Positions 5,089 to 35,663 of a stretch of 41,651 nucleotides of DNA are shown piece after piece. Under the pieces are notes generated by a model. That model was given only the letters and a program-made list of their open reading frames with translations. It had not been told where the DNA came from and did no database searches. The DNA comes from a virus, in IMG/VR virus record IMGVR_UViG_3300046009_001904, positions 1-41,651 of that record; one strand, 5' to 3'. How positions within the stretch are numbered: position 1 is the first letter of the stretch; each line of letters starts with the position of its first letter. Position numbers and translations under genes: made by a program.

Positions 5089-6636
5089 TTATATTGCGTA
5101 TAATCTGTTTCGAGAACTTCTAAACCCTGGTATATCTTCAGGCTCGTCACTAGGTAATCTAATAAACCCACCTTGTCTGAACCGCATCAATGCTAGTGTT
5201 GTGCTATCCACCAAGTCATCATTAGCACCACTAGGAAAATCATTACACTCTTCAATAACTTCTTTAGCCCATCGTCTATCAGGCGCCCATACTATACCAC
5301 TTCTAAACAAATCTGAAATTGCGTTGACTCGACTAATCTTATCTTGTCCTTTACCAGGTGTGAATTCACCAATAGGCAAACCCATCCTACGCATTTCTTG
5401 ATAAAGTGCGGCACCGTTAGATTTCTTTTCGACCATGAATGCATCTGGCTCCCAGTCTTTGTACTCACGGAGTACCATCTCTTTGAGCTCTGGAAACTCA
5501 AGTCGTTCTTTGATTGAATTTAATAGTATTATATTATAGTTATTGGTTTCTTCGTTAAAAAAGACGCCCCAAGTGGTGAGCGCATTGTAGTCCGCTCTAT
5601 TATTTGCCTCCTGGGCAGCATCTAAACTCATAATAGTGAACTCACACTGAGGAGGATCTTCCTCTTCCCATATCTTCCACCATTCTCTTTTAATTAACGC
5701 ACCTTCTTCTGATACTGGATTTTGTAAATACTGTGAGTTCCAATACCTTACATCTAACGCAGCTTTCTTAGCTAATAACTCTTTTAACGGCCAGAACTCA
5801 GGCCATAATGACGCTTCGTTGCCGTCTTTGTCTTCAATAATTGCTGGAAATTCAACCACTTCCCACTCATCTACACCTTCTTGTTTGATCATTTGATTCA
5901 CTATCTGACCCGTCAAGTCAAGCTTAGACCACCTCGTCATCACTACAATAATCGCACCACCCGGCATAAGACGTTGTAATGGACCAGACTGAAACCACTC
6001 CCAAGCAGGCAGAAAAACATCCGATCTACCCAACTTGGCGTCTTGCTCGGAGTGTGGATCATCAATGATAAACAAATCAGCCCCGCGACCAGCGAGGGCA
6101 CCACCAACACCAATTGCGAAATATTCCCCATTAAAATTTGTCCCCCATCGTGACGCCGACTTACTGTCAGCTTGTAGTTCTACCTGTGGGAAGATATCTT
6201 TGTAAGCATCACTACCCACCAAATTTCTAACCCGACGACCAAAATTAACAGCAAGGTCAGCCGTATGCGACGCCATAATAACTTTCTTATGAGGGTATTT
6301 GCCAAGAAACCAGGCTGGAGCAAGATAAGAGATAAGCTCACTCTTCCCGTGCCTCGGAGCAATATTAACAATAACTCGTTTCTTCTCGCCTTTCGCAATT
6401 GCTTCAAATATGTTAGCAAGTTTCTGATGATGCGCCCCTATCATGTACCCTGGGTATACATGTTGTATAAAATCTAAAAATGTTTCTTTGCCCGACTTCT
6501 CGACGACCTTACCTTTATACACTTTAAGAAGTTTTTGAAGTCTAATTTTTTGCTCTTCATCCGCGTTGGGAAAAAGGGCTTCTAGTTCTTCAATTTCTTT
6601 TTTAGTGATCGTGTATTTTGGTTTCGCTTGTGCCAT
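5089..6636 (-). CDS. terL: Terminase large subunit (packaging ATPase/nuclease)
   Basis: A 515-aa protein with both TerL domains. ATPase: Walker A PRHGKS at residues 94-99, Walker B FIIDDP at about 189-194, and a motif III-like VVMTRW near 231-236. Nuclease (RNase H fold): SLDAAQ with D339, MVEKKSNG with E403, and NDDLVDS with D473/D474. It cuts the concatemer and pumps DNA through the portal. The start is the ATG at 6636, inside the end of the small terminase candidate (35-base overlap), and the stop is 10 bases before the portal ATG. Length and motif order are normal for the family. Confidence 0.95.
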   Translation of the reverse strand: MAQAKPKYTITKKEIEELEALFPNADEEQKIRLQKLLKVYKGKVVEKSGKETFLDFIQHVYPGYMIGAHHQKLANIFEAIAKGEKKRVIVNIAPRHGKSELISYLAPAWFLGKYPHKKVIMASHTADLAVNFGRRVRNLVGSDAYKDIFPQVELQADSKSASRWGTNFNGEYFAIGVGGALAGRGADLFIIDDPHSEQDAKLGRSDVFLPAWEWFQSGPLQRLMPGGAIIVVMTRWSKLDLTGQIVNQMIKQEGVDEWEVVEFPAIIEDKDGNEASLWPEFWPLKELLAKKAALDVRYWNSQYLQNPVSEEGALIKREWWKIWEEEDPPQCEFTIMSLDAAQEANNRADYNALTTWGVFFNEETNNYNIILLNSIKERLEFPELKEMVLREYKDWEPDAFMVEKKSNGAALYQEMRRMGLPIGEFTPGKGQDKISRVNAISDLFRSGIVWAPDRRWAKEVIEECNDFPSGANDDLVDSTTLALMRFRQGGFIRLPSDEPEDIPGFRSSRNRLYAI

Positions 6637-8557: not shown

Positions 8558-9400
8558 ATGAATAATCATTCAATAGCACAATCGATAACCGATAACGTTA
8601 TCAAGGCACTCGAAGCAGGCACAGCACCATGGGTAAAGCCCTGGAATAGTAACGGCATCGATGCACCATTCAATCCAATATCTAAAAGATATTACAACGG
8701 CATCAACTTCATTCAGCTATCAATGATGCCTGGATCTACTCACAACTGGGTTACATATAAGCAAGCGCAGAGCGTTGGAGCTCAGGTGCGCAAGGGTTCG
8801 AAGGGAGTGCATGTGATCTACTTCAGTCCGCTCGAAGTCCAGGATCGAGTTACCAATGAAGTAAAAAAGATTCCAATGCTTAAGACCTACACTGTATTTA
8901 ATGCGGATCAAGTCGACGGCCTGGAGTTACCTGCACCGACTGAGCGCACCATGAATGAATCAATTGCATCATGCGAGGCATTCATTAAAGCGCAACGCGC
9001 AGAGATTAAGCATGGAGGCAACCGCGCATTTTATGTACCTTCAGCTGACTATATTCAGTTACCGGAGCTCGATCAATTTAAATCAAGCGCGGATTATTAT
9101 GCGACTTCATTGCATGAGTTATCACACTGGACTGGACACGAGTCACGATTGAATCGAGATTTCTCAGGCCGTTTTGGTAACGAGGCTTATGCCTTCGAGG
9201 AGCTAGTCGCAGAGCTCGGATCAGCAATGTTATGCGCTCACAATAAGATCGATGGCCAGTTACAGCATGCATCATATATAGCTAGCTGGCTCAAGGTGCT
9301 TAACGATGATCCCAAGAATATACTCAAGGCTTCAGCACTAGCACAAAAGATCCTGGACTATACAACTAAATCAACTATCGAGGAGGCAGAGGAGGCGTAA
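8558..9400 (+). CDS. ArdC-like antirestriction protein with zincin domain
   Basis: A 280-aa protein with the two-part ArdC layout: an N-terminal ssDNA-binding-type domain (about 1-125) with the AGTAPWVKPW, YYNGIN and GxKGVHVIYFSP signatures, and a C-terminal metallopeptidase-like domain with HELSHWTGH (H186, E187, H190) and AFEELVAELGSA (about 212-223) supplying the likely third ligand. Plasmid ArdC proteins protect incoming DNA from restriction. It is the first gene of an operon with its own promoter (8487) and terminator (10010). AAAGGG 7 bases upstream supports the ATG at 8558. The cassette looks like an imported host-defence counter-measure. Confidence 0.85.
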   Translation: MNNHSIAQSITDNVIKALEAGTAPWVKPWNSNGIDAPFNPISKRYYNGINFIQLSMMPGSTHNWVTYKQAQSVGAQVRKGSKGVHVIYFSPLEVQDRVTNEVKKIPMLKTYTVFNADQVDGLELPAPTERTMNESIASCEAFIKAQRAEIKHGGNRAFYVPSADYIQLPELDQFKSSADYYATSLHELSHWTGHESRLNRDFSGRFGNEAYAFEELVAELGSAMLCAHNKIDGQLQHASYIASWLKVLNDDPKNILKASALAQKILDYTTKSTIEEAEEA

Positions 9401-10042: not shown

Positions 10043-10070
10043 GAGAACTGGTCTCAAAGCTAATCGCTCA
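10043..10070 (+). repeat. Dispersed 28-bp element, copy 1
   Basis: GAGAACTGGTCTC followed by AAAGCTAATCGCTCA. It differs from copy 2 (10958-10985) at one base and is related to copy 3 (17878-17903). It lies just after the terminator at 10010. The first half is an interrupted inverted repeat (GAGA...TCTC). Confidence 0.85.
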
Positions 10071-10846: not shown

Positions 10847-10868
10847 GTCTTTTAACCTAGTTTTATCT

Positions 10869-10896
10869 AGCCCTCAAGAGAGGGCTTTTTTATTTT
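10869..10896 (+). terminator. Intrinsic terminator after the GP88-like gene
   Basis: AGCCCTC-AAGA-GAGGGCT is a perfect 7-bp stem followed by TTTTTATTTT. It lies 23 bases after the stop codon. Confidence 0.92.
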
Positions 10897-10957
10897 CTAT
10901 GCCTGACTATTTTACTCAAGTATTTTACATTGTAGGGACTATGTCCTGACAAGGAGG

Positions 10958-10985
10958 GAGAACTGGTTTCAAAGCTAATCGCTCA
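10958..10985 (+). repeat. Dispersed 28-bp element, copy 2
   Basis: The same element as 10043-10070 with C changed to T at one position (GAGAACTGGTTTC, then AAAGCTAATCGCTCA). A short inverted repeat GGGAC-TAT-GTCC lies about 12 bases upstream. It marks the left border of the large non-coding region. Confidence 0.85.
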
Positions 10986-10997
10986 CTTGGTCAACCT

Positions 10998-11340
10998 TGT
11001 TCCAACGATGTTCCCAAAATTGTTCCTGTTTTTTATCTCGTAAGTGCTTGATTTTATTCATTTGTTCCATGTTCCACCTCGTGCAAATAGGGGGGTGTCC
11101 GAAGTCGACGAAGTTAGGAATCAAGAGACCATGTAATGCAGTGAGCAACATCGTTGACCTTGCCAATCACTCGTTTTTTAGGGCAGGAACATGGAACATT
11201 GCTTAAAAAATAACCACTTGTTAAGTAATAATAATAATATAATATATAATATAATCAAAGACTTACAACACTTTTTCCCATCTTAAAAACCCTCGTTCTT
11301 GTTCTATTAGTAAACTTAACCCATTTTAGAACATGGAACA
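10998..11340. other. Candidate replication origin: iteron-like repeats and AT-rich tract
   Basis: TGTTCC occurs at 10998, 11009 and 11021 (11-12 bases apart, one helical turn) and again at 11063 and 11070. The complement GGAACA occurs at 11186, 11193 and 11335, with AGAACA at 11328. The paired form GGAACATGGAACA is thus seen at 11186-11198, in reverse at 11063-11075, and with one change at 11328-11340. Between the last two pairs is a run of almost pure A/T (about 11219-11260). Repeated short motifs in phase beside an AT-rich tract in the largest gene-free region is the layout of an iteron-type origin. No initiator can be named. Confidence 0.5.
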
Positions 11341-11534
11341 TTTAAAACGAGGTCAAACTTGGCAAATAACAGGGTCAATCACACACAAAAAGAGAACAGA
11401 ATCCAAAACAAAACCCAAACTAAAACCTAACTTATTCGCCAAGCGACCCTAACTAAAATAAATCCACCAAGCAAGAACCATGCCAAGTTAGTAAAGTAAA
11501 CAAAAATAAATATGAAGAAATAGTAAACAAATAC
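11341..11534. other. Non-coding region, A/C-rich with an inverted repeat
   Basis: No gene is supported here. The + strand is strongly A- and C-rich and poor in G (about 11380-11480). AACTTGGCA (11356-11364) and TGCCAAGTT (11481-11489) form a perfect 9-bp inverted repeat 116 bases apart. The stretch continues the origin candidate and leads to the promoter of the small-gene cluster. Confidence 0.5.
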
Positions 11535-11563
11535 TTTACAAACATAAAAAAGGCGAGTATCGT
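11535..11563 (+). promoter_or_regulatory. Candidate promoter of the small-gene cluster
   Basis: TTTACA (11535-11540), 17-base spacer, TATCGT (11558-11563), matching 5/6 and 4/6 of the sigma70 hexamers. It is the best candidate I see upstream of 11636; the predicted leader would be about 65 bases long. Confidence 0.35.
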
Positions 11564-11635
11564 TTTCTACATGGCAACGAACAAAGCAATACCGAAAGCC
11601 ATACTAAATTAGTCAACATTAACGAGGAGAGCAAT

Positions 11636-20104: not shown

Positions 20105-21964
20105 ATGCAACTAGTCACACTAGACTTCGAGACCTACTACGACGTAGGTTTTTCTCTTTCAGGGTTAACTACAGAGGAATACATAAAGGATGAGAGATTC
20201 CAAGTCATCGGCGTCAGTATTAAGATTGATCAGAGTGAAGCTAAGTGGTATACAGGTGATCAAGTTAAAGAAGCACTTGATAATATTGATTGGAAAAACT
20301 CTGCCCTTCTTTGCCACAACACGCAGTTCGATGGGGCTATTCTTTCATTCCGTTATAACATCATTCCTGGTCTTTACTTGGATACGCTTTGTATGGCACG
20401 GGCTATACATGGTGTGGACGTGGGCGGAAGTCTCGCTTTTCTTGTGGAGAAATACAATCTAGGTCGTAAAGGCACAGAGGTTGTTGATGCAAAAGGTAAA
20501 CGTTTAGAAGACTTTACATCGCAAGACCTTGCTCAATATGGTGAGTATTGTAAGAACGATACAGAACTTACCCATAAATTATTCCAGATACTAGCACCTG
20601 ATTTCCCAGAGAACGAAGTTAAACTCATCGATTTAACATTACGCATGTATACCGAGCCTGTCTTGGAAGTCGACGATGCGTTACTACAAGATAGACTAGA
20701 TGACATTCAAGCAGAGAAGTCTCAGCTATTACAAGGTCTCATGAAAAGATTAGAGTGTGATACCGAAGAGTGTGTCCGTGCTAAGTTAGCATCTAATAAA
20801 CAATTCGCTGAGCTATTGATAGAGCTTGGTATTACACCGCCTACAAAGATTAGTCCAACGACCGATAAAGAAACGTATGCATTAGCAAAAGGCGACACAG
20901 GGTTTTTAGAATTAACTGAACACGAAGACCCATTCATTCAAGAACTATGTCGTGTTAGATTAGGAACTAAGTCAACGATAGAAGAATCCCGTATTGAAAG
21001 ATTCATCGGTATCGGTGCTAGGAATAAAGGCAAACTACCTATCCCACTTAAATACTATGGCGCGCACACAGGACGATGGGCAGGATCAGACAAGGTCAAC
21101 TTCCAAAACTTACCCGCTAGGGACAAGAAAAAGAAAGCATTAAAGAACGCAGTCATCGCACCGGAAGATCACGTTGTTATTAATTCTGACTCATCGCAAA
21201 TTGAAGCAAGAGTATTGGTATGGCTTGCAGGACAGGATGACGTAGTCGAGTGGTATAGAGAAGGTCGTGATGTTTATTCAGAGTTTGCATCCAAAGTTTA
21301 TGGTAGACCTATCACTAAGAAAGATACCACAGAACGCGCAGTGGGTAAGACTTGTATTCTAGGTCTAGGATATGGCACAGGGTGGAGCAAGCTACAACAA
21401 ACACTAAAGATTGCAACAGGATTAAACCTTGATGAAAGTGAATGCCAACGGCTCGTTAAAGTTTATAGAGAAGTTAATGACAAAGTAATTCAATTATGGA
21501 AGACGTGTGATGAGGCATTAAGGGATATGTCCGCATGGCCTAATGGTAAAGAACCTTATTATCTAGACGCACGCAATGCTTTACTTGTCACACCAAAAGG
21601 CATACGATTACCGAACGGACTTTATATATACTATCCAGGTCTTACATGGGATATTTCAGAATCTAAATCTAAATATATTTATAAGTCTAGACGCGGTATG
21701 ATTTCCATTTGGGGTGGATCAGTCGTTGAGAATGTGATTCAAGCTTTGGCGCGCATCATTGTCGGCGAACAGATGCTAGAAATTAATAAAAAATACAGAC
21801 CCGTGCTTACTGTTCACGATGCGGTAGTCTGCGTTGTCCCTGAGACAGAAGTGGATGAAGCTCTCTCCTTCATAATGTCCACTATGTCTTCTCCTCCTTT
21901 GTGGGCAACCGGGCTACCTGTAGCGTGTGAAGCACATCATGGCGCAAGTTATGGCGATTGCTAG
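20105..21964 (+). CDS. Family A DNA polymerase with 3'-5' exonuclease
   Basis: A 619-aa replicative polymerase. Exonuclease: DFET (D7, E9), HNTQFDGAIL (D76), YCKNDTE (Y148, D152). Polymerase: GRWAGSDKVNFQNLPAR (about 323-339), motif A NSDSSQIEARV (D362), motif B RAVGKTCILGLGYG (R411, K415, Y423), motif C VHDAVV (H571, D572). All catalytic residues are present and no 5'-3' exonuclease domain is attached, as in T7 gp5-type enzymes. It is the first gene of the replication module and overlaps the following nuclease gene. Confidence 0.96.
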   Translation: MQLVTLDFETYYDVGFSLSGLTTEEYIKDERFQVIGVSIKIDQSEAKWYTGDQVKEALDNIDWKNSALLCHNTQFDGAILSFRYNIIPGLYLDTLCMARAIHGVDVGGSLAFLVEKYNLGRKGTEVVDAKGKRLEDFTSQDLAQYGEYCKNDTELTHKLFQILAPDFPENEVKLIDLTLRMYTEPVLEVDDALLQDRLDDIQAEKSQLLQGLMKRLECDTEECVRAKLASNKQFAELLIELGITPPTKISPTTDKETYALAKGDTGFLELTEHEDPFIQELCRVRLGTKSTIEESRIERFIGIGARNKGKLPIPLKYYGAHTGRWAGSDKVNFQNLPARDKKKKALKNAVIAPEDHVVINSDSSQIEARVLVWLAGQDDVVEWYREGRDVYSEFASKVYGRPITKKDTTERAVGKTCILGLGYGTGWSKLQQTLKIATGLNLDESECQRLVKVYREVNDKVIQLWKTCDEALRDMSAWPNGKEPYYLDARNALLVTPKGIRLPNGLYIYYPGLTWDISESKSKYIYKSRRGMISIWGGSVVENVIQALARIIVGEQMLEINKKYRPVLTVHDAVVCVVPETEVDEALSFIMSTMSSPPLWATGLPVACEAHHGASYGDC

Positions 21965-24275: not shown

Positions 24276-25841
24276 ATGCAAATTATTGACAATACCGCAA
24301 TACAACTCACTGTGCCAGAACACATCGTTCCGCATATCACAAGCAGTATAGAAAAATCCGAAATTATAAGTAGACAAGGTAACCTCGCTGAGATGGTTAT
24401 ATATTGGGGCGTTGAAGAGATGACCCAGTTAAATCGTCTTGCATCGTTTAGAAACAATCTACCTTCACCTATGTCACGTGATTATAAATGGTCAGGATTG
24501 TATACACCGTTCGACCACCAAAAAGTTACCGCAGAATTTTTAAGTATCAACCACAGAGCATTTTGTTTTAACGAGGCCGGCACTGGAAAAACATCGTCAG
24601 TACTTTGGGCAGCTGATTATCTAATGACGCTAGGTAAAGTCAAACGTGTTCTTATTATATGTCCTTTATCTATTATGTATTCTGCGTGGCAAGGCGACGT
24701 ATACAACACGTGCATGCATCGTTCGGTTAGTGTTGCACATGGTACTGCCGAGAAACGTAAAAAAATTATTAACAACTCATATGAATTTATCATCATTAAC
24801 TACGATGGTGTAGGCGTAATAAGAGAAGATATAGAAAAAGGTGGATTTGATTTGATCGTGATTGACGAAGCGAATGCATACAAGAGTCCTTCTACAACTC
24901 GCTGGAAGACGCTAGCTAAAATATTAAAACCTGAAACAAGACTATGGATGTTAACAGGTACACCGGCATCTCAATCACCCGTCGATGCATTCGGTCTAGC
25001 TAGATTAGTATGTCCACAACGTGTGCCTAAATTTTCAGCAGCGTGGCGTGACAAGGTTATGTATCAGAAGTCAAGATTTAAATGGTTACCAAAAGCTAAT
25101 GCTAAAGATGAAGTATTTAAAGCATTGAAACCTGCGATACGATTCGCCAAGAATGATTGCTTAGATTTACCTGATGTCATGTATCAAACACGAGACATAC
25201 CTTTAACGGCACAGGTACAAAAATATTATAAGTTACTTAAAGATGAAATGCTTATTCAAGCTGCAGGAGAACAGATCAGCACGGTCAATGCTGCGGCCAA
25301 CCTTAACAAGCTATTACAAATATCAGGAGGCGCAGTCTACACAGATAAAAAAGAAGTTGTTGAGTTTGATATATCACCGCGTCTATCTGCATTGATGGAA
25401 GTAATTGATGAGACAGAACATAAAATAATTGTGTTTGTACCTTATAGACATACGATTGAAGTGCTAGCTAGGTTCTTACATGATAAAGGGATTATGGCCG
25501 AGGTTATTAACGGAGCTGTAACAGCAACCCATCGAGCTAATATTATTAATAGGTTTCAAACAGTTGAAGATCCAAGAGTATTAATCATACAACCCCAAGC
25601 CGCTTCTCACGGAGTGACGCTAACTGCAGCAAACACGGTTGTATTTTGGTCTCCGGTATTAAGCGTTGAAACTTACTTACAATGTATTGCCCGTATGGAT
25701 CGGGTAGGACAACAGAATAAGATGACTGTAGTTCATTTACAGGGGTCTGAAGTAGAGAAGAGGATGTATAAGATGTTGCAAGGCAAAGTAGATTTACATA
25801 GTAAATTAGTTGATTTATATCGAGAGGAGTTAGAAGAATGA
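24276..25841 (+). CDS. SNF2-type (SF2) helicase
   Basis: A 521-aa protein with NEAGTGKTSS (Walker A, GTGKT 102-106), VIDEANAYKS (motif II as DEAN, 197-200), MLTGTPASQ (motif III, 226-230) and QCIARMDRVGQQ (469-480, motif VI in the Q..RxxRxGQ form of SNF2 proteins). Such phage helicases may open the replication bubble, remodel branches or drive strand exchange. It starts its own transcription unit (promoter 24210) and overlaps the next gene by 4 bases. Motif II DEAN in place of DEAH is a permitted variant. Confidence 0.92.
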   Translation: MQIIDNTAIQLTVPEHIVPHITSSIEKSEIISRQGNLAEMVIYWGVEEMTQLNRLASFRNNLPSPMSRDYKWSGLYTPFDHQKVTAEFLSINHRAFCFNEAGTGKTSSVLWAADYLMTLGKVKRVLIICPLSIMYSAWQGDVYNTCMHRSVSVAHGTAEKRKKIINNSYEFIIINYDGVGVIREDIEKGGFDLIVIDEANAYKSPSTTRWKTLAKILKPETRLWMLTGTPASQSPVDAFGLARLVCPQRVPKFSAAWRDKVMYQKSRFKWLPKANAKDEVFKALKPAIRFAKNDCLDLPDVMYQTRDIPLTAQVQKYYKLLKDEMLIQAAGEQISTVNAAANLNKLLQISGGAVYTDKKEVVEFDISPRLSALMEVIDETEHKIIVFVPYRHTIEVLARFLHDKGIMAEVINGAVTATHRANIINRFQTVEDPRVLIIQPQAASHGVTLTAANTVVFWSPVLSVETYLQCIARMDRVGQQNKMTVVHLQGSEVEKRMYKMLQGKVDLHSKLVDLYREELEE

Positions 25842-26263
25842 GTGAAGAAATAGTAGAGAAGCAAGATTATAAACTTGATGAATTAGTCAAAACTTATTTG
25901 ACAATCAGATTAGCACGTGATAATCTAGCTAGGCAATTTGAATTAAAGGACGCTGAATTAAAGGCGGAAATGATTCAATTAGAACAAGTAATGCTAGTCG
26001 CCTGCAATGATATTAATGCTGACAGTATACGTACAGGGAATGGAACTATTATTAAAACTACTAGGGAAAACTTTGTATGTAATGATTGGGATAACTTTAA
26101 AGATTACATCAAGCAACACGATGCCTTGGAGTTATTACAACAACGGATACATCAAGCTAATTTTAAAGAGTTCATTGCAAACAAAACTGAAGAAGGATTA
26201 CCTCCGGGCATCAGCGCGTTGCGTGAGTTAAGTGTAGTAGTTAGAAAACCAAGTAAACAATAG
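25838..26263 (+). CDS. Conserved replication-module protein, Gam-like helical
   Basis: A 141-aa protein with a long N-terminal helix pair (about 12-60, RLARDNLARQFELKDAELKA), then ADSIRTGNGTIIKTTRENFV and HDALELLQQRIHQANFKEF, and a GLPPGISALRELSVVVRKP end. I recall this pattern, AESIRTxxGTxxxTTR...HDALELLxxRV, from many phages, always near helicases and ssDNA-binding proteins, without known function. Co-translated with the helicase (ATGA overlap). Confidence 0.7.
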   Translation: MSEEIVEKQDYKLDELVKTYLTIRLARDNLARQFELKDAELKAEMIQLEQVMLVACNDINADSIRTGNGTIIKTTRENFVCNDWDNFKDYIKQHDALELLQQRIHQANFKEFIANKTEEGLPPGISALRELSVVVRKPSKQ

Positions 26264-26271
26264 GAGCACAT

Positions 26272-27243
26272 ATGAGTACCGATTTAATTAGTATATTGCA
26301 ACAGAACACAGCACTTGTTCAAACAGGTGTTGACGAAGATACCCTTGCGGTTGCAGGGGGTAGTGGTAATCAATCAAAAAGAATTTCTATCAAAGGTGGT
26401 GTATTCCGTAAAGTTGTCGGTGGAAAAGAAGTAGCACTCATCGAAGACAGGCATATGGATGTTATCTTTGTTAAGATGGCACACGACCCTTCGAGAATGT
26501 TTTATTCATCAGGATATAAAGAAGGTGAAAAGGTTAGTCCTGTATGTTGGTCTAGTAATTCTAAGACGCCTGATAAAGAAGTTAAAACACCTCAAGCACC
26601 TACATGTGACTCATGTAAACATAGCGTAAAAGGTTCAGGTCCTAATGGTACAGGTACAGCATGTCGTATTTCTTGGAGAACCGCAGTTGTATTACCAAGC
26701 GATCCTGCTGGCGACGTACTTCAATTAGTTATTCCAGGCAAATCATGTTGGGGTGAAGGCGATGCAAACAGACGTCCGTTCCAACCTTACATTAGAAACT
26801 TAAAAGATTTAAATATCAGTAAAGACGTTCTTGTAACTAAGATGTCGTTTGATACCCGATCAGAAGCACCACGATTATTATTCTCTATGCATGCTCCAGT
26901 ACCACCAGAGTTAAGAGACGCTATCGTAAAACAATCCCAATCTCTTGCGGCTGAGCAAGCAGTTAAGTTAACTGTATATCAAGCACCAGAGAATTTGTTA
27001 GACGATGGAGCTCCATCAGCACCTGCGATTGCACCGACAGTGGTAGCTAGTACGACTACAGCGCCTCCTGTTCAAGCTGCACCGCAACCTACTCCGGCAG
27101 TACAACCTACTCCGGCAGTACAACCTGTAGTGCAAGGCGATGTCATTGTAGAAGAGCCAGTATTAAGACCTTCAGAAACACCGCCACAACCACAAGTAAA
27201 AGATGTTAGTAGTATCTTAAGCAAATGGGGGGCGAAGAGTTAA
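26272..27243 (+). CDS. Candidate ssDNA-binding protein with zinc motif
   Basis: A 323-aa protein: residues 30-90 beta-rich (KRISIKGGVFRKVVGGKEVALI), a Cys cluster CDSCKHSVKG...C (CxxC plus later Cys), a second beta-rich part, and a long Pro/Ala/Thr/Val linker (about 245-305) ending in a short SSILSKWGAKS tail. The linker holds an 18-base tandem duplication. The layout, a beta-rich core with zinc and a flexible tail, is reminiscent of ssDNA-binding proteins, and its position after the helicase fits. I recall relatives in uncultured aquatic phages. The function is inferred. Confidence 0.6.
   Translation: MSTDLISILQQNTALVQTGVDEDTLAVAGGSGNQSKRISIKGGVFRKVVGGKEVALIEDRHMDVIFVKMAHDPSRMFYSSGYKEGEKVSPVCWSSNSKTPDKEVKTPQAPTCDSCKHSVKGSGPNGTGTACRISWRTAVVLPSDPAGDVLQLVIPGKSCWGEGDANRRPFQPYIRNLKDLNISKDVLVTKMSFDTRSEAPRLLFSMHAPVPPELRDAIVKQSQSLAAEQAVKLTVYQAPENLLDDGAPSAPAIAPTVVASTTTAPPVQAAPQPTPAVQPTPAVQPVVQGDVIVEEPVLRPSETPPQPQVKDVSSILSKWGAKS
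27085..27126 (+). repeat. 18-bp tandem repeat in the Pro/Ala linker
   Basis: Two exact copies of an 18-base unit (27085-27102 and 27103-27120; starts CAACCTACTCCGG) plus the first 6 bases of a third. Encodes QPTPAV twice in the candidate ssDNA-binding protein. Confidence 0.9.
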
Positions 27244-27245
27244 TC

Positions 27246-27557
27246 ATGGCTAGACCTTACAGCGAGAAATATTTATTAAGTATTGATAAGTTAGATCCAA
27301 CTAGAGCGGGTGTTCAGCTAGGTAAACTTTGTGTGCAGGCTAATCTGCCTATAACATATATTGCCAAAGCTTTTAATGTATCAAGAATGTCTATACATAG
27401 TTGGTTCAGAGGTCAGTACATAAGAGAAAAAAATTATTTTAAGATTGATAACTTCTTAAAAATAGTGCAGACAGAATTAGATAAAGGCTCACTGCCTGCG
27501 CCTAGTTTAGAAGAAGCTAAAAAATTTATTGATAAGAAGATTATCGACAAGATATAA
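27246..27557 (+). CDS. HTH DNA-binding protein
   Basis: A 103-aa basic protein with ITYIAKAFNVSRMSIHSWFRG (about 36-56), a typical helix-turn-helix of the Cro/XRE type in which IAKAFNVS is helix 2 and RMSIHSWFRG the recognition helix. The C-terminal part is helical and Lys-rich. The start is the ATG at 27246, 3 bases after the preceding stop. It lies directly before a promoter and a regulated leader, so it could control the primase gene; this is inference. Confidence 0.75.
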   Translation: MARPYSEKYLLSIDKLDPTRAGVQLGKLCVQANLPITYIAKAFNVSRMSIHSWFRGQYIREKNYFKIDNFLKIVQTELDKGSLPAPSLEEAKKFIDKKIIDKI

Positions 27558-27624: not shown

Positions 27625-27657
27625 TTGACTAAAAAAATAGAAAGTCACTGCAAATGA
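27625..27657 (+). CDS. Ten-codon leader ORF before the primase
   Basis: TTG start at 27625, 5 bases after GGAGGAG, then nine codons (TKKIESHCK) and TGA whose first two bases overlap the ATG of the primase gene (ATGA). The strong ribosome site is spaced for this TTG, not for the ATG at 27654. It may be a leader peptide that couples translation to the primase; it is too short for homology support. Confidence 0.4.
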   Translation: MTKKIESHCK

Positions 27658-30620
27658 TTAAAGAATTTTATAAAAAGATATTACCAAGCAAAGGCATCTA
27701 CTGCATTGCAGACATCAATCCCGCAACTGGGAAGACTACACATAAGTTCGTAGAATCTGTTGACGAGATAGAACCTATTGTCAATAAACTCATATCTAAA
27801 AATACAAATATATTTGTTGCATTGGCTGCATTTAAAGGATATAGCCGTAAGGCAGATAGCGCGGAGTTCCTTAGATCATTCTTCGTGGATCTTGATGTTG
27901 GAGAAAATAAAGAATATAAATCTAAAGAAGAGGCACTTGCAGACCTTAGTAAATTTGTAATAGATAATGAGTTACCTCCTCCAACTAGAGTAGATTCAGG
28001 TGGTGGAGTTCATGCTTACTGGCCAGTTGATGTAGATATTCCGTTAGATGAATGGAAACATTATGCTGATGCATTCAAACAATTCTGTATAAATAAGGGA
28101 TTAAAAATTGATCCTGTAGTTACCGCAGACCCCGCACGTATTTTACGTTGCCCTGATACCTTCAATCAAAAGTCTAATCCGCCTATGCCAACAAGTGTTA
28201 TGGATAAAGAGATTAATGTATATTCGTTTGAAATGTTTAAAGAGTTTTTAGGTGTTGCAACATACGAGAATAATTCTCTAGAAGAACTCATTAGGGCTTT
28301 ACCAAAAGGTGGATTATCTGAAGATCAGAAGCTAGCAAGTGGGCATTATAATTTTGAAGCGAGCTTTGAAGAGCTAGCTAAATTAAGTTTAGAAGGCGCA
28401 GGATGCGATCAGATTAAATACATTCTTATGAATGCTACTACCTTAACTGAACCTATATGGAGGGCAGGATTAAGTGTGGCACACAATTGTTCAGATGGCG
28501 CTACAGCTATACATAAAATGTCAGAAGGTCATCCTGGTTACACTAGAGAAGCCACAGAAAGAAAAGTTATACCGTTAAAAGATAGTTCATATACATGCAA
28601 AAAGTTTGACGAAGTTAATTCTAATATTTGTGCAGGATGTCCTAACTTTAACAAGGTTAGAAAACCAATTGAAATTACAAAAGAGTTTAAGTCATCACGT
28701 AGTCAACCAGTAGAACAAGTAGTAGAACAAGTAGTAGAACAAGTAGTAGAACAAACAGTAAAAGAAGTTCCACAAGTAAATATTAATATACCTTTGGCAG
28801 ATCCTTTCAAGCCTATAGTACAGGTAGATAATAACAATCAATTAGTTAATACAAGTACAAGTAAAGTTATACAGTTACCACCTGAGTTGTTTCCATATGA
28901 ATATGGCCGTACGGGAGGACTTTATGTTCACTCAACTAAACCTTTGAAAGAAGGCGATAAACCTGAGAGACCTAAGTTACTTACTCCCTATGAAGTTTAT
29001 CCTTTAAAACGTATTGATAGTACGGCTGATGGGGAATGCCTATTAATACGCGTTATAACACCGCATGACCCACCAAATGAATTTTTATTTCCAATAAAAT
29101 ATGCGTACGCACAAGATAAGTTTAAAGAAATTATGTCTAGCAAACGCGTATTATTTGATCCGAATGGAGTACTTTTATTTATGGTATATTTTATTAAATG
29201 GGGACAATATCTTATGAACAAACAATCCGCAGAAATTATGCGCATGCAAATGGGCTGGACGCCCGGCAGAGAATCCTTTGTAGTAGGCAATAGAGAATTA
29301 ACTAGATCAGGTGATACAATATCTTCACCTACATCACCGCTATGTCAAGGGATTGCTAAACATCTAACACAAGTTGGTAGCTATGAAACATGGAAAGAAG
29401 CTGCTAACAAATTAAACAAACCAAGTTTAGAGCTTCATGCTTTTACTTTGTTGACTGGATTTGGTTCAGTACTTATGGACTATACATCGACATCAGGTGT
29501 AACTATCTGTTTGACAGGTGAATCAGGTGCAGCTAAGACAGGTGCTCTATATGCTAACTTAAGCGTATGGGGTAACCCTAAAGATCTATCAGTCTTAGAC
29601 GCAACAGAGAATGGTATGACAGGTCGATATCTTGGTCTACACAATATTACTTTCGGTCTAGACGAGGTAGGTAACATCTTACCTAAAACATTGTCACAAC
29701 TGATCCACAAGATTTCACAAGGTAAATCAAAGATTAGAATGCAAGCATCAGTGAACGCAGAACGTGAACACGAAATGTCAGCATCTATGATCGCTGTGTT
29801 TACATCTAATCATTCTTTATACGACAAACTAACTACGCTGAAGAAAGATCCTAACGGGGAAGTAGCTAGGTTGATTGAGTTTTCAGTACACAAACCTGAA
29901 GCTTTTGCAGTAGACGCTAACTTAGGACGTGAGATATTTGATAAGTTTAGATTTAATTATGGTTGGGCAGGGCAAGAATTTATATTTGCTTTGTATAAAA
30001 AAGATAACTCAATCATACAAGGTATGGTCGACAAATGGTGCCTACAATTTAAATCAGACTTTGGTGAAGATACAGCATATCGATTCTATGAAAACTTAAT
30101 TGCAGCGACAATGACTGCAGGTGAGATAGCAGTAGAAGCAGGTATTGTGAAGTATGATATTGATCGAGTCTATAGACGTATCGTTGGTGAAATGATTGCA
30201 ATCCGTGACAACGTAGTTAGAATTAATAAGATTGACTACGAGTCAGTGCTCAGTGATTACATCAACAAGAACCAAGGTGGTATCTTAGCATTTAAAGATA
30301 ATAAGATTATTATGGAGCCTAGGTTCTCTGCGTTTGTAATTCGAGTAGAGAACGACGCACAGATGATGTGGATTTCTAAAGCAGAGTTTGATAAGTATCT
30401 ATTAGAGATTGGTGTAAGTCGTAAACAATTTATCTATGAAACTAAACAAGCTGGCTTAGATATTAAAGTAGGAAGCAATATTAAGAAGCGTATGAATGCA
30501 GGTTGGAAAGATTTAGGTAAGAGTCCAACAAGTGTATATGCAGTTAATATGGCATCTTTATCTGATGATATTGTTAAGAATGTAAAAGCAGACGAGGAGA
30601 TTCAAGCTGAAGCTGCATGA
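27654..30620 (+). CDS. Primase-ATPase fusion (AEP-like primase plus DUF927-type ATPase)
   Basis: A 988-aa protein. N-terminal domain: FFVDLDVG (D79, D81), DSGGGVHAYW (H120) and ADPARILRCPDTFNQK (D159), the hhDxD, sxH and third motif of archaeo-eukaryotic-type primases. A Cys set C315, C326, C329 (YTCKKF...CAGCP) may bind zinc. A VEQ-rich linker follows, then the ATPase: GESGAAKTG (Walker A, 622-630) and FGLDEVGN (Walker B, D670, E671) with a DUF927-like surround (VFTSNHSLY). Such fusions make primers and unwind DNA. No other primase or DnaB-type helicase is seen, so it is probably the main primase-helicase. Confidence 0.85.
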   Translation: MIKEFYKKILPSKGIYCIADINPATGKTTHKFVESVDEIEPIVNKLISKNTNIFVALAAFKGYSRKADSAEFLRSFFVDLDVGENKEYKSKEEALADLSKFVIDNELPPPTRVDSGGGVHAYWPVDVDIPLDEWKHYADAFKQFCINKGLKIDPVVTADPARILRCPDTFNQKSNPPMPTSVMDKEINVYSFEMFKEFLGVATYENNSLEELIRALPKGGLSEDQKLASGHYNFEASFEELAKLSLEGAGCDQIKYILMNATTLTEPIWRAGLSVAHNCSDGATAIHKMSEGHPGYTREATERKVIPLKDSSYTCKKFDEVNSNICAGCPNFNKVRKPIEITKEFKSSRSQPVEQVVEQVVEQVVEQTVKEVPQVNINIPLADPFKPIVQVDNNNQLVNTSTSKVIQLPPELFPYEYGRTGGLYVHSTKPLKEGDKPERPKLLTPYEVYPLKRIDSTADGECLLIRVITPHDPPNEFLFPIKYAYAQDKFKEIMSSKRVLFDPNGVLLFMVYFIKWGQYLMNKQSAEIMRMQMGWTPGRESFVVGNRELTRSGDTISSPTSPLCQGIAKHLTQVGSYETWKEAANKLNKPSLELHAFTLLTGFGSVLMDYTSTSGVTICLTGESGAAKTGALYANLSVWGNPKDLSVLDATENGMTGRYLGLHNITFGLDEVGNILPKTLSQLIHKISQGKSKIRMQASVNAEREHEMSASMIAVFTSNHSLYDKLTTLKKDPNGEVARLIEFSVHKPEAFAVDANLGREIFDKFRFNYGWAGQEFIFALYKKDNSIIQGMVDKWCLQFKSDFGEDTAYRFYENLIAATMTAGEIAVEAGIVKYDIDRVYRRIVGEMIAIRDNVVRINKIDYESVLSDYINKNQGGILAFKDNKIIMEPRFSAFVIRVENDAQMMWISKAEFDKYLLEIGVSRKQFIYETKQAGLDIKVGSNIKKRMNAGWKDLGKSPTSVYAVNMASLSDDIVKNVKADEEIQAEAA
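28710..28754 (+). repeat. 12-bp tandem repeat in the primase linker
   Basis: GTAGAACAA occurs four times at 12-base intervals (28710, 28722, 28734, 28746), encoding VEQ units separated by V. It forms a flexible or coiled linker between the primase and ATPase halves and is a likely slippage hot spot. Confidence 0.92.
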
Positions 30621-30807
30621 TGAACCAGAATGGATTTTTCCATTTGAAGCTATGGAGGTAGGGCAGAGTTTCTTTGTTCCTACCCTCAAGCCTTCGCCTA
30701 TGCTTTATGCAATTGAGTCAGGTGGTAAACGAGCAGGCGTTAAAATGAGAGCGTTTGTAACGATGAAAGACGGATGTCTAGGGGTAAGAGCTTGGCGTAT
30801 TAATTAG
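30607..30807 (+). CDS. Small conserved protein, probable non-ATG start
   Basis: A 66-aa protein reading LKLHDEPEWIFPFEAMEVGQ at its start and ending KDGCLGVRAWRIN. I recall the pattern PFxxMxVGxSFxVP...VRxWRI from many phages. ATG 30655 would lose the conserved PFE part, and the only starts before it are CTG codons; CTG 30607 has GAGGAGA 7 bases upstream. It overlaps the primase stop. It ends in a TTAG overlap with the convergent virion gene. Confidence 0.6.
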   Translation: MKLHDEPEWIFPFEAMEVGQSFFVPTLKPSPMLYAIESGGKRAGVKMRAFVTMKDGCLGVRAWRIN

Positions 30808-33800
30808 TCGCTGTAGTTTTCTTCGATGTATTGTCTTACGTTTTTATTAATGTAAACACCATCTATTGAGTCTTTACCTCGTTGTACGTGCTGTCTATAA
30901 GATCTAGCTTTAGTATCTTCGGTGATTCTAAAAGGACCAGGTACTACTTCATTAAACTTATTAATCTTTTCATTGACTTCAGCCATACCCTCAACGTCAT
31001 TACTCATTCTAGCTAAGTATAACAAGTCAAGAAGCGAAGTCTTTTTAGATGTAAGCTTTTGTTCTGCTTTCTTCATTGAGTTTGCACGGGCATATGTTTC
31101 GGCAAGTTCTGCATTTGTAAATCCAAGTATTTGCGAGAATGATTCATAAGCATTAAAGTCTTCTTTAAGTGGCACACCATTAGTAGTTAATGCACCCTCA
31201 GTTGCAAATCGGAATCCTTTAAGTGGGTTCTTCACAAAGGAAGGTAACATAGTCTCTACCGCTCTATAAGATTGTCCTTGACTAAATAGATCAGCCGCAC
31301 GTGTAGGATTAATAAAGACTGCTTGATATGCTGGACCAAAGAAATGTTCTGCAATGTATGGACCCATGCCAACTTCTGATAAACGACGTTCATCGCTACG
31401 CCAGATCATGCCGTTGAAACCAGTTCTTGATGCAATGTCTATAGCAAGTAATTTATTTAACGCGCCTTTGTAGCCAAGGTCACCAACCGCTGTGCGAACT
31501 TCTTCATCAAAGTCATAAGGCTCATCATCGCCCATCGCTGCAATTGCAGAGGCTAGCATATTAATTGCGCCGTAAAGAGGTAGTCCTTGTAAGCCTGCTA
31601 CAGCAAATGTCATACCATAAATACCTAATAATTGTTTACGTGCAGTATCTCTTTCATCTTTAGTCATACCTTTTGTAGATAGATAAAACAAACGAGCTAC
31701 GTTATAAATTTGAGCTTGAGCAAAACGTTTAAAGGTAAACGCAACCTTACCAAATCCTGTTTGGAAGTAACGTGGTCCAACTTCGGATAATGCATGAGAG
31801 TGAACTTTGCTTGTTAAGTCCATTGCCTTTTTAACTGCAGCATCATGGCTATCACCTTTTTCAATCGCTAAGTCATACGCAGCTAATAAAGTTATTTCTC
31901 TATTCATACGTTCTGAGTTTTGGAATACCCAACCTAATGCTGTATCTACTTTGCCTTTGATACCTGAAAAGTCAGCAGTGTCATTCTTACGCATATCAGT
32001 TAGTTCATAACCTACGCCACGTTTGATAATAGAATGTTTAAGCGCTTCTTCGTATAATAATTTGTGGCCTTTAGATAAATCTTTACTTACACCGAATGTA
32101 TAGTCAGGTAGGAATTCACGGTTCTTATCAATGCCGCCCTTCATGTAAATAGCACGTGCTCGGTTCATAGCTTCAGCAGCACGAAGATAACCATACTCAC
32201 CACCAAGCATAGGATAGACCATCATAGGTAGCTGAGTGATGTTGACTAGAGCAGATGACACATTACCCGCAATGTTCCAAGTATAGCTAACGTAGCTAGC
32301 GCGTGATGACCATGTATCTGCAACAGGGTTCTCTAAGAATGCTCTTTGTTTTAAGACATCGTTTACAACGTCAACAATAGGTTCTTCTTGATTTTTACCT
32401 TGTGCAACAAGATCAGCGATAGACTTATCAATCATCGGTCGATATTCTAGGTTAGCAAGTTGATGTGCCATCTTAGAACCTACGTCAGCAAAACCTGCTA
32501 CAACATCTTCAATATAACCTGGCACACCTTCACGTTCTTTTTGTAACTGACGTAATGATTCTGCAGGCATAAGGTCTAAGTAAACTCGGTATGCTTGATC
32601 AATAATAGAATCTTCTACCCCACCTTTTCTCATGAGGTCTACAATCTGGCCCATGAATCCTGTAGGAGGCGCATTCTTGTAATTAATAAATTCTAGTTTA
32701 GCGTAGCGTTCAAATTCAGTACCGCCTTTAGCTTTAGCTTCTTTAATCATGTCTTCACGTATTTTCGGATCGATGCTAGCTATAACAACTCGTTCACCAT
32801 CTTTGTCTTTATAAGTTAACCAGTAATCTCCACGACGTCTTAATGGATGGTAGAACGGTAATTTGTTTTTCTCAAACTGTGCACGTAATGCTTTAGCTGT
32901 AGTAGGCGACGCTTTAGCAATCATATTAATCATTTGCTGACTATATTTTTCATACTGCTCTGTATAATCAATTGCTAATTTTTGTAGCTCAGGAGGTAAT
33001 GTTTTAAAGTTAATGACTAGTTGATTAGTAGAGTTCACATCTTTTCTAGGATCTATATTTTGTACAGAGAGATCAAATGTAATCTTATTAAACTTCTTAA
33101 CAACTTGTTCTGGGAATTTATCAATAATCTTTTTACCACCTATGACAAGTGCTTCAACTTCACGTCTGAAACTATCAGCAACGTTTGCACGTTTCTCTAA
33201 TGCATCTAGTAAAGATTGCAACGCAGGAAGTTGTTGACCATATAGTTCGATCTTATTAGGTAATGATGTAAATGCTAGATAAGTTTTTCTTAGCCAACGA
33301 GGTGCATTAAATAAAATACCTGACGCTGCTTGACCTATCTGGGTATTGTAACCAGGAAGTGAAGAGATAACTTTGCCTACACTATTAGCTAAAGATACAG
33401 ATGCATTACTACTTACCATAGTTAATGGCAATTTTTCAGATTGTTCTTCTGTTTGTGCGGGATCATTAGGCGTTTTAACCATATCTGATTGAGGAACGTA
33501 CTCTACTTCTGACGCTGTAGTCTCATCTGTTTCAGTAGTTTCTGTTGTTGCAGCTACAGGGGCGCCTGCAGGTTGTTTAGTTGTGGTAGTAGTTGTACCA
33601 CCTAATGTAGTAGGTATGGTAGCCTGCGCTGGTGGAGTAATAGATGCGGCTGCAGTAGTTGCAGCTTTCTTAGCCGCTTTTGCTGCTTTTTCTTGTGCAA
33701 TAGGAAGTGGTTGTTGTAGTATACGTTGCCCTGTATCTTGTACAGGTTGACCAAACATATCTAGTTGTTGAGGCGCACCTAGTGTATCGGGCTGTCCCTC

Positions 33801-35663
33801 TGTTCCTCCTTCAACTGCTGCAACATCAACTGGAGCCCCAGTATCTCCAATTCCGACGCCTCCTTCAACTCCTCCGGAAACTCCTCCTCGAACGGGTTGT
33901 CCAGATACCTCAGCGCCTTCTCTATCTCCTGTTTCGACAGTTCCTTCATCAAATAATTCCCCTTGTCTTTTTATGTTGCCTTCTTTGCCAATAGACTCTA
34001 GTAAAGTAAGGGCTTTAGTGCCATGATCATTGTAAAATTTATTTTTGTCATTGCCCGCGATGTCCGCAACCATATTATATACCTCTTGGTTTGCAAGACT
34101 CTTGCCTTTTAACATTTCAAATAACTTACCAGACTTAATACCAACTTCTTTGAGTCGTTGACTTGTAAGCTCTGTCAACGGTGTAGGAGGCACATTAGCA
34201 AATACAGCTTCAAACTCTTTTTGTTTTTGCGCACGAGCGTCTTCATCTTTAATATCAAATGTAGCTTGATGTCTTTGGAGGTCTATGCGAATTTTATTTT
34301 GTTCTGTTTGATTGTAGCCTGAAAAATAATTTGCGAGATTATCAAGAACTGTTTGAGTGCCTTCTCTTGTAGTTAATAAATCATTAACCTCTCCTCTACG
34401 TTTCAAACCTTCACGTTCTTTTTGTTGGTTCTCTAGTAGGTCTAAAGTTTGTGTATTGAATACATCGCCCAACTCTTTAGCACGTTGTTGTTTCTCGTCT
34501 TCAGTCATACTAGACTGATTAATAATACCTAGTTGGGAATTAAAATTTGAATTGAGTTGGTCAAGGGCACTTTGATGTTCTTGTTGTTGTCTTTCAAGTT
34601 CTAACGTAGCCCCTTCTGATATGCGTCGTTCTTCACCACGTTCACGGATTCTAGCTGGTACTGCACCAACACCACCAAATACTCCGCCTGTAATAGCGCC
34701 TCGAACGGCGGATTCTGTAACACGTTCCCAATCTTTAGAACTAAATAACTGAGGATTGTTTTGAACAAACTTTTCTGCGGCAATATTAATTGCTTCTTGT
34801 GCGCCTTCAGTTAAGCCTTCCATAGTAGCGGCTTCTGTCAGACCAGATACAGCTTTACGGGCGATGCCAGGTTTCATGCCCGACTGTTTAAGAATATTTT
34901 CTACTACGCCTACCTTCATAGGACCTGTAATAGTATTAAGTAATTTAGAAGGTAAGTATGAATCTAATACAGATGATATAGAACTTGCGATTAAAGCTGC
35001 GCTGGGCTCTAGTTTACCTGTTTCATTGTAGATACTGCCGAATACTTCAGGAGCATTTAATGAGTAGGCGCCTAAATACACACCTAAGTTTTGACCAAAT
35101 TCTTTTCCCGCGCCAATACGTTGTGCAGCGTATCTTTCCGCAGCCCCTTTAGCAACTGCTTCTTCTGCTTCTCGTCCCGCTATTTTTTCTGCAGCAGCTT
35201 TGGCTGCCATGCGGCCACCTATAACTCTACCTGCAGCTCCAGGTCCTATCATCGTTGCAATGTTAGGTATTTGTTTACCTGTTTCCATCGCAGCAAACGT
35301 AGCAAAGTCACCGAGTCCTTGTACATCTTTATAGGATTCAAATGCTTCAGGATATTCAGCAGCTATTTCTCTTTGTGACTGTGCCGCCTCTTCCATCTGA
35401 CGTTTAGCATATTCATCAAAACCTAAAGCACTAGCTCCTATAGCAGGAATAACATCGCCAAACTCGGACACAAGTCGTTTAGCGCCGCTGCCTAAACCTG
35501 CTTTAAGTGCGCCTGTAAAACTATAGTCGGGACGAGCTTTAGAAGATAAGACTGCAGAATGATGTTCGGCCGCAGCTTGTAGAATACGATCTTGTGAAGT
35601 GCCTTCAGGCGCCTCGATTTTATACTCGTTGCCATCCGGAGCTTGTACGGTGAAGATAGGCAT
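30804..35663 (-). CDS. Giant virion protein, probable DNA-ejection (internal) protein
   Basis: A 1619-aa protein. N-terminus MPIFTVQAPDGNEYKIEAPE with a RILQAAAEHH helix; an Ala/Gly-rich region (about 95-210) with amphipathic helices; coiled-coil Glu/Gln/Lys stretches (about 330-430); a Thr/Pro/Gly/Glu low-complexity region (about 570-730); and a large helical C-terminal part (about 770-1619) that includes a hydrophobic patch near 1340-1370 (YGMTFAVAGLQGLPLYGAI). It resembles large phage polyvalent or internal virion proteins that are injected with DNA. No lytic transglycosylase motif was found. It is the last gene in the leftward virion module and its stop overlaps the convergent gene. Confidence 0.75.
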   Translation of the reverse strand: MPIFTVQAPDGNEYKIEAPEGTSQDRILQAAAEHHSAVLSSKARPDYSFTGALKAGLGSGAKRLVSEFGDVIPAIGASALGFDEYAKRQMEEAAQSQREIAAEYPEAFESYKDVQGLGDFATFAAMETGKQIPNIATMIGPGAAGRVIGGRMAAKAAAEKIAGREAEEAVAKGAAERYAAQRIGAGKEFGQNLGVYLGAYSLNAPEVFGSIYNETGKLEPSAALIASSISSVLDSYLPSKLLNTITGPMKVGVVENILKQSGMKPGIARKAVSGLTEAATMEGLTEGAQEAINIAAEKFVQNNPQLFSSKDWERVTESAVRGAITGGVFGGVGAVPARIRERGEERRISEGATLELERQQQEHQSALDQLNSNFNSQLGIINQSSMTEDEKQQRAKELGDVFNTQTLDLLENQQKEREGLKRRGEVNDLLTTREGTQTVLDNLANYFSGYNQTEQNKIRIDLQRHQATFDIKDEDARAQKQKEFEAVFANVPPTPLTELTSQRLKEVGIKSGKLFEMLKGKSLANQEVYNMVADIAGNDKNKFYNDHGTKALTLLESIGKEGNIKRQGELFDEGTVETGDREGAEVSGQPVRGGVSGGVEGGVGIGDTGAPVDVAAVEGGTEGQPDTLGAPQQLDMFGQPVQDTGQRILQQPLPIAQEKAAKAAKKAATTAAASITPPAQATIPTTLGGTTTTTTKQPAGAPVAATTETTETDETTASEVEYVPQSDMVKTPNDPAQTEEQSEKLPLTMVSSNASVSLANSVGKVISSLPGYNTQIGQAASGILFNAPRWLRKTYLAFTSLPNKIELYGQQLPALQSLLDALEKRANVADSFRREVEALVIGGKKIIDKFPEQVVKKFNKITFDLSVQNIDPRKDVNSTNQLVINFKTLPPELQKLAIDYTEQYEKYSQQMINMIAKASPTTAKALRAQFEKNKLPFYHPLRRRGDYWLTYKDKDGERVVIASIDPKIREDMIKEAKAKGGTEFERYAKLEFINYKNAPPTGFMGQIVDLMRKGGVEDSIIDQAYRVYLDLMPAESLRQLQKEREGVPGYIEDVVAGFADVGSKMAHQLANLEYRPMIDKSIADLVAQGKNQEEPIVDVVNDVLKQRAFLENPVADTWSSRASYVSYTWNIAGNVSSALVNITQLPMMVYPMLGGEYGYLRAAEAMNRARAIYMKGGIDKNREFLPDYTFGVSKDLSKGHKLLYEEALKHSIIKRGVGYELTDMRKNDTADFSGIKGKVDTALGWVFQNSERMNREITLLAAYDLAIEKGDSHDAAVKKAMDLTSKVHSHALSEVGPRYFQTGFGKVAFTFKRFAQAQIYNVARLFYLSTKGMTKDERDTARKQLLGIYGMTFAVAGLQGLPLYGAINMLASAIAAMGDDEPYDFDEEVRTAVGDLGYKGALNKLLAIDIASRTGFNGMIWRSDERRLSEVGMGPYIAEHFFGPAYQAVFINPTRAADLFSQGQSYRAVETMLPSFVKNPLKGFRFATEGALTTNGVPLKEDFNAYESFSQILGFTNAELAETYARANSMKKAEQKLTSKKTSLLDLLYLARMSNDVEGMAEVNEKINKFNEVVPGPFRITEDTKARSYRQHVQRGKDSIDGVYINKNVRQYIEENYSD

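Follow-up and report, generated by a model that had tools for sequence, protein, structure and literature searches.

What function is served by a 789-bp gene-free region that carries a tight cluster of short repeated words in the genome of an uncultured phage is the question raised by this locus. The window, i.e., the whole stretch of DNA analysed, is a 41,651-bp IMG/VR virus record, and the region within it contains two ORFs, at 10975-11166 and 10997-11206, both with a TTG start. The region and its parts are as follows.

10847..11635, no strand: intergenic region with the candidate origin, gene-free, with a homologous region of conserved layout in relatives
10958..10985, plus strand: 28-bp element GAGAACTGGTTTCAAAGCTAATCGCTCA, with another copy at 10043-10070
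10998..11026, minus strand: three direct words (10998, 11009 and 11021; 11 and 12 bp apart); most relatives have three to five forward words here
11041..11053, minus strand: IHF-consensus site 1, TAAGTGCTTGATT, 22 bp before pair 1 and at about -22 in most genomes; putative IHF binding
11063..11075, minus strand: word pair 1, TGTTCCATGTTCC, with a 7-bp period (7-9 in relatives)
11076..11185, no strand: core that separates the pairs, in which the block GCAGTG at 11138-11143 is conserved (alignment of 25 regions)
11186..11198, plus strand: word pair 2, GGAACATGGAACA, inverted relative to pair 1
11226..11255, no strand: tract of A/T only, matched in position in relatives; proposed DNA unwinding element
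11253..11265, plus strand: IHF-consensus site 2, AATCAAAGACTTA, with a near-invariant ACTTA block
11300..11305, minus strand: degenerate forward word TGTTCT; most relatives have a single forward word here
11310..11316, plus strand: GTAAAGT-like conserved block (GTAAACT in the window; alignment of regions)
11328..11340, plus strand: word pair 3, AGAACATGGAACA, with one mismatch; relatives have two or three inverted words here

The initial annotation had reported nine copies of GGAACA/TGTTCC within 343 bp, and a recount gave eight exact copies (on the plus strand, TGTTCC at 10998, 11009, 11021, 11063 and 11070, and GGAACA at 11186, 11193 and 11335) and one with a single change (AGAACA at 11328), to which the one-mismatch TGTTCT at 11300-11305 is added as a tenth. 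The 11-12 bp gaps claimed for three of the words and the near-pure A/T tract claimed within the set were both found again. Three pairs of the form GGAACATGGAACA are also present as described, whereas the statement that they alternate between strands did not hold because their order is minus, plus, plus. When hexamers with at least two G/C and at least three different letters were counted on both strands, the maximum per 343 bp was 8 in the window versus no more than 6 in 60 dinucleotide shuffles of the genome; the presence of multiple short direct repeats in this 343-bp cluster is beyond chance. Across the whole window, the word occurred 22 times versus 18 expected, without enrichment, and, thus, only the cluster is special.

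Relatives were sought in IMG/VR through the upstream gene, the polymerase, the primase-helicase and the 28-bp element. The layout proved to be common to approximately 30 related phage contigs or regions, in which the words agree in number, orientation and spacing, and the region was found in nearly all contigs that include the upstream part (the contigs of G030, G034, G035 and G039 end early); G031 has a partial version only. Where both are present in a contig, the family A polymerase gene follows the region at a distance of approximately 8-13 kb downstream. In its 5' part, three to five direct words 8-12 bp apart are followed by TAAGTNNTTGATT approximately 22 bp before a direct pair with a period of 7-9; the middle consists of the core with its GCAGTG block, an inverted word pair, the A/T-rich tract at the same place as in the window, and usually an IHF-like block ending in ACTTA; in the 3' part, one forward word usually stands beside GTAAAGT, and then come inverted words, two or three in number, after which there is often a further IHF-consensus site. 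The initial annotation had proposed that conserved spacing amid changing sequence would support an origin, and this is strongly the case in the approximately 30 regions, among which polymerase identity ranges from 99% down to 63%. The distance between the pairs clusters at 110-121, 129 and 139-141 bp (a core of approximately 120 bp), which is compatible with steps of one helical turn, although a p-value for this periodicity is a weak argument because the main cluster of distances is tight.

Relatives that were found through the upstream GP88 gene alone were mostly other phages without the cluster. A DNA search among named phages gave no match. Of the named phages that are closest in polymerase, RHph_TM27A and Rollin encode a distantly related primase-helicase, and no cluster was recognised in them. 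In Pseudomonas phage KPP25 (L135, 1200-1920; record 26199-26919), a large intergenic gap contains TGTTACGA/TGTCACGA repeats next to an A/T tract, perhaps a similarly styled origin in a cultured phage; the primase-helicase profile did not match this piece of KPP25. A 17-kb record, G019 (L121, L022), shows the same origin layout together with a GP88-like gene; a primase-helicase was not found in these 17 kb, which are perhaps a fragment. In G013 (63,600 bp), the primase-helicase gene is present at both ends of the record, which suggests that the assembly is circular or terminally redundant. To our knowledge, there is no cultured member with this layout. Searches of the open literature, which leaves aside most subscription papers, revealed no description of this origin or layout, and this absence is weak evidence of novelty.

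Regarding the blocks that flank the words, TAAGTNNTTGATT and AATCAANNACTTA match the IHF consensus WATCAANNNNTTR, a string that was confirmed in the literature. There were 51 such matches in 30 regions versus a mean of 2.0 in shuffles, with at least one in 28 of the 30, usually 22 bp before pair 1. We infer from these matches that IHF of the host would bind these sites; a scan of genome contigs for a host matched only two MAG contigs. The GTAAAGT/GTCAAGT blocks, which may be the site of a separate protein, lie beside words and close to promoter-like sequences (e.g., TATGTAAAGT), at 11310-11316 in the window and downstream of the cluster in L116-L127. The two copies of the 28-bp direct repeat are identical at 27 of 28 positions, and the repeat follows two terminator-like hairpins; a degenerate form of the element matched in 12 viral contigs. 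This repeat is possibly a 5' RNA or promoter-associated element. A search of Rfam gave no match.

Two-sided arrays of short direct sites together with IHF-consensus sites also resemble lambda-type attP, in which arm-type integrase sites and IHF sites surround a core. However, no integrase match was found among the window proteins scanned, and the tyrosine recombinase family PF00589 was detected in none of 20 records of the group (possibly incomplete) versus 14 of 14 positive controls, on the basis of which attP was rejected as extremely unlikely.

The word itself differs between lineages (TGTTCC, TGTTCT, TGTTAC, TGTTCA, AGTTCC, AGTTCA, GGTTCA and TGTGTCC), and a change occurs at nearly all sites of a region together. 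The clearest example is L003: its neighbouring gene is 97% identical to that of the window, yet its words read TGTTCT at the sites that are TGTTCC in the window. A tree of 23 genomes, built from primase-helicases without their C-terminal domain, requires at least 12 word changes, and the words scatter approximately as shuffled labels do. Since a single protein reading all sites is expected to result in concerted change at approximately ten separated sites, this pattern suggests joint change of an initiator protein and of the word that would be its binding code.

A host factor as the reader, with the different words reflecting different hosts, has a probability that we regard as close to nil. 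The alphaproteobacterial LexA box is GTTC-N7-GTTC, and the word of the window has a GTTC core, with one spacing, 11 bp, that fits this box; however, the pair spacings are 7-9 bp and the others 8-12 bp, with no fixed 11, and the LexA box was rejected because of the conserved pair spacing. Moreover, the word differs even between the closely related phages G037 and G038, which argues against any host factor.

The initiator may instead be encoded in the same replicon, the replication genes of which include the following.

20105..21964, plus strand: family A DNA polymerase
24276..25841, plus strand: SNF2-type helicase
27225..27557, plus strand: HTH_3/XRE-like protein, candidate for reading the word or for an accessory role (Pfam HTH_3 at E 0.0011, which does not reach the curated cut-off)
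27654..30620, plus strand: 988-aa fusion of a RepB'-like primase and a SaPI-Rep/DUF927 helicase (Pfam DUF927), candidate initiator and replicative helicase

A PD-(D/E)XK exonuclease and a conserved 323-aa protein also belong to this set. The latter (26272-27243, plus strand) has invariant cysteines and profile matches to proteins of Rollin, RHph_TM27A and KPP25, and no sequence relative was found for it in the PDB. The HTH protein, the family start of which is at approximately 27246 and the model of which has a pLDDT of 89.5, is encoded directly upstream of the primase-helicase in 26 of 26 aligned sequences. The 988-aa fusion matched 5dgk and 8tch by profile and 3h20, 8tch, 6zp9 and 5dgk by Foldseek. 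Its N-terminal part resembles the RepB' primase and the S-2L PrimPol in fold. For the helicase part, profile and fold both give matches to SaPIbov1 Rep and SCCmec Cch, and the C-terminal part was modelled as a small alpha/beta domain with moderate confidence, as was the fusion overall (mean pLDDT 62.6). A candidate initiator with a SaPI-Rep-like helicase is, thus, present in the same replicon by profile and fold. SaPI Rep recognises the iterons of its origin with a C-terminal domain, and the C-terminal domain of SCCmec Cch2 binds direct repeats of the origin (PMC7581432). A protein of this type is therefore expected to be partnered by an iteron origin.

Which of the two proteins would read the word was assessed by partial Mantel tests against word distance (letters 1, 5 and 6) with the helicase domain controlled. 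The HTH protein correlated with the word at r 0.40 (p 0.0005) and the C-terminal domain at r 0.31 (p 0.0015), both values being uncorrected for phylogeny and the number of tests; the HTH signal came mainly from letter 1, and that of the C-terminal domain from both letter 1 and letters 5-6. The primase N-terminus also tracked letter 1 (r 0.38, p 0.001), indicating that these covariations are partly shared ancestry, and windows of the primase showed no correlation with the word when the whole primase was the control. The HTH residue after FRG follows letter 1 in 23 of 23 genomes, a pattern that represents just two to three independent events. There are counter-examples: G002 and G005 have different words and the same recognition helix, and in G037 (AGTTCC) and G038 (AGTTCA) the HTH proteins are identical and the C-terminal domains 98% identical. 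A comparison of the G037 and G038 proteomes revealed no clear swapped reader. Apart from a far-end protein of 2021/2068 aa, their most diverged homologue in the replication arm is a protein of 405/416 aa (47% identical); no gene of such a size was seen at the matching place of the window. With these counter-examples, the covariation is no more than suggestive of an initiator that may bind the repeats.

The tracking of letter 1 by an HTH_3/XRE-like protein would also be expected if the words were operators of a phage regulator, such as this protein, that controls the rightward early genes and loops the DNA with IHF, the A/T tract being a promoter. The region is directly upstream of a rightward cluster of small genes, promoter-like matches are present, and heteroimmune repressors likewise show concerted changes in their operators. 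However, these matches barely exceed shuffles (8 vs 5.1), the lack of word enrichment elsewhere in the window argues against a regulon, the HTH gene always adjoins the primase-helicase gene, and an operator set alone does not explain approximately ten words and a conserved A/T tract. We consider this reading unlikely, while operator and origin functions may coexist.

Direct repeat clusters are also carried by packaging (pac) and centromere (par) sites, either of which would be bound by a phage protein, and the terminase large subunit gene (5089-6636) is 4.4 kb from the cluster. However, no partition protein was found among the proteins scanned, and the A/T tract and the initiator helicase are better explained by an origin, such that a pac or par site appears very unlikely. 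In the window, the cumulative GC-skew, which had been proposed as a check, reaches its minimum at a distance of 2.8 kb from the cluster; in G003, G018, G037 and G038, this distance is approximately 1-2.5 kb. The minimum is, thus, near the cluster; since it coincides with the gene-strand switch in the window, it does not discriminate, and neither refutes nor independently supports an origin. The first gene of the rightward arm (8558-9400, plus strand) matches a PHROG annotated as anti-restriction. On the other strand, at 30804-35663, a 1619-aa protein is encoded, the C-terminal half of which matches DarB-like antirestriction families and the N-terminal part, weakly, virion families.

Among known systems, the rep-ori of Staphylococcus aureus pathogenicity islands (SaPI) is similar in its short origin iterons and in an initiator helicase of the same fold family (8tch). 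The window differs in having its helicase joined to a RepB'-like primase, in carrying IHF-consensus sites, and in being the genome of a tailed phage that encodes a family A polymerase of its own. In SaPI and SCCmec, the origin comes immediately after the helicase gene, whereas in the window the word cluster (11.0-11.3 kb) precedes the helicase gene (27.7-30.6 kb) by approximately 16 kb, and, thus, does not have the SaPI-type placement. The SCCmec Cch2/CCPol-MP module shares a SaPI-Rep-like helicase that binds direct repeats and a family A polymerase (PMC7581432). In SCCmec, a polymerase-MP complex performs priming, whereas the RepB'-like domain in the window is fused to the helicase, and the sequence and number of iterons differ. 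The closest primase structure to the fusion is RSF1010 RepB' (3h20). Iteron plasmids (R6K, RSF1010 and pSC101) possess iterons, an A/T unwinding element and sometimes an IHF site; plasmid iterons are usually longer, whereas the words in the window are 6-8 bp and form two opposed arrays. The alpha protein of satellite phage P4 similarly unites primase, helicase and origin binder in one protein that acts on short repeats, and P4 is set apart by its own primase type and ori/crr arrangement. Phage lambda uses the O initiator with iterons and an A/T-rich region, its origin is inside the O gene, and it loads host DnaB, whereas the origin proposed here lies between genes, in a phage that encodes a helicase and a polymerase of its own.

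Taken together, the layout kept in approximately 30 regions, the words rewritten in concert, the IHF-consensus sites and the SaPI-Rep-like helicase support the initial reading of the region, judged from sequence, as very probably an iteron-type replication origin of the phage. In the mechanism that we propose, the words would be bound cooperatively by an initiator of the phage, which may be the HTH protein, the C-terminal domain of the primase-helicase, or the two together, and host IHF would bend the DNA and thereby bring the two word arrays together. The A/T tract at 11226-11255 would then melt, the helicase would be loaded, the RepB'-like domain would prime, and the family A polymerase would extend. 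The word may change at all sites while the architecture stays because the word and its reader are proposed to change together. We offer tentatively, as an extension that we ourselves doubt, that a two-array complex is read jointly by the HTH protein, which would recognise the first letter, and by the primase-helicase, the C-terminal domain of which would recognise letters 5-6, and that the word is an identity code of the replicon, often switched on an invariant scaffold (at least 12 times in 23 genomes), perhaps to escape co-infecting phages or satellites with the same kind of initiator.

A rigid two-array layout marked by IHF-consensus sites, an often rewritten word and a primase-initiator fusion together form an unusual combination in a tailed-phage lineage. 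The present results provide a concrete candidate origin for a large group of uncultured phages that possess both a family A polymerase and a fusion of primase and initiator, for which there are 413 matching stretches in IMG/VR. The approximately 30 natural variants, which keep the layout and differ in the word, will be useful for mapping how initiator and iteron change together, and the layout may serve to locate the origins of further uncultured phages with no need to know the word.
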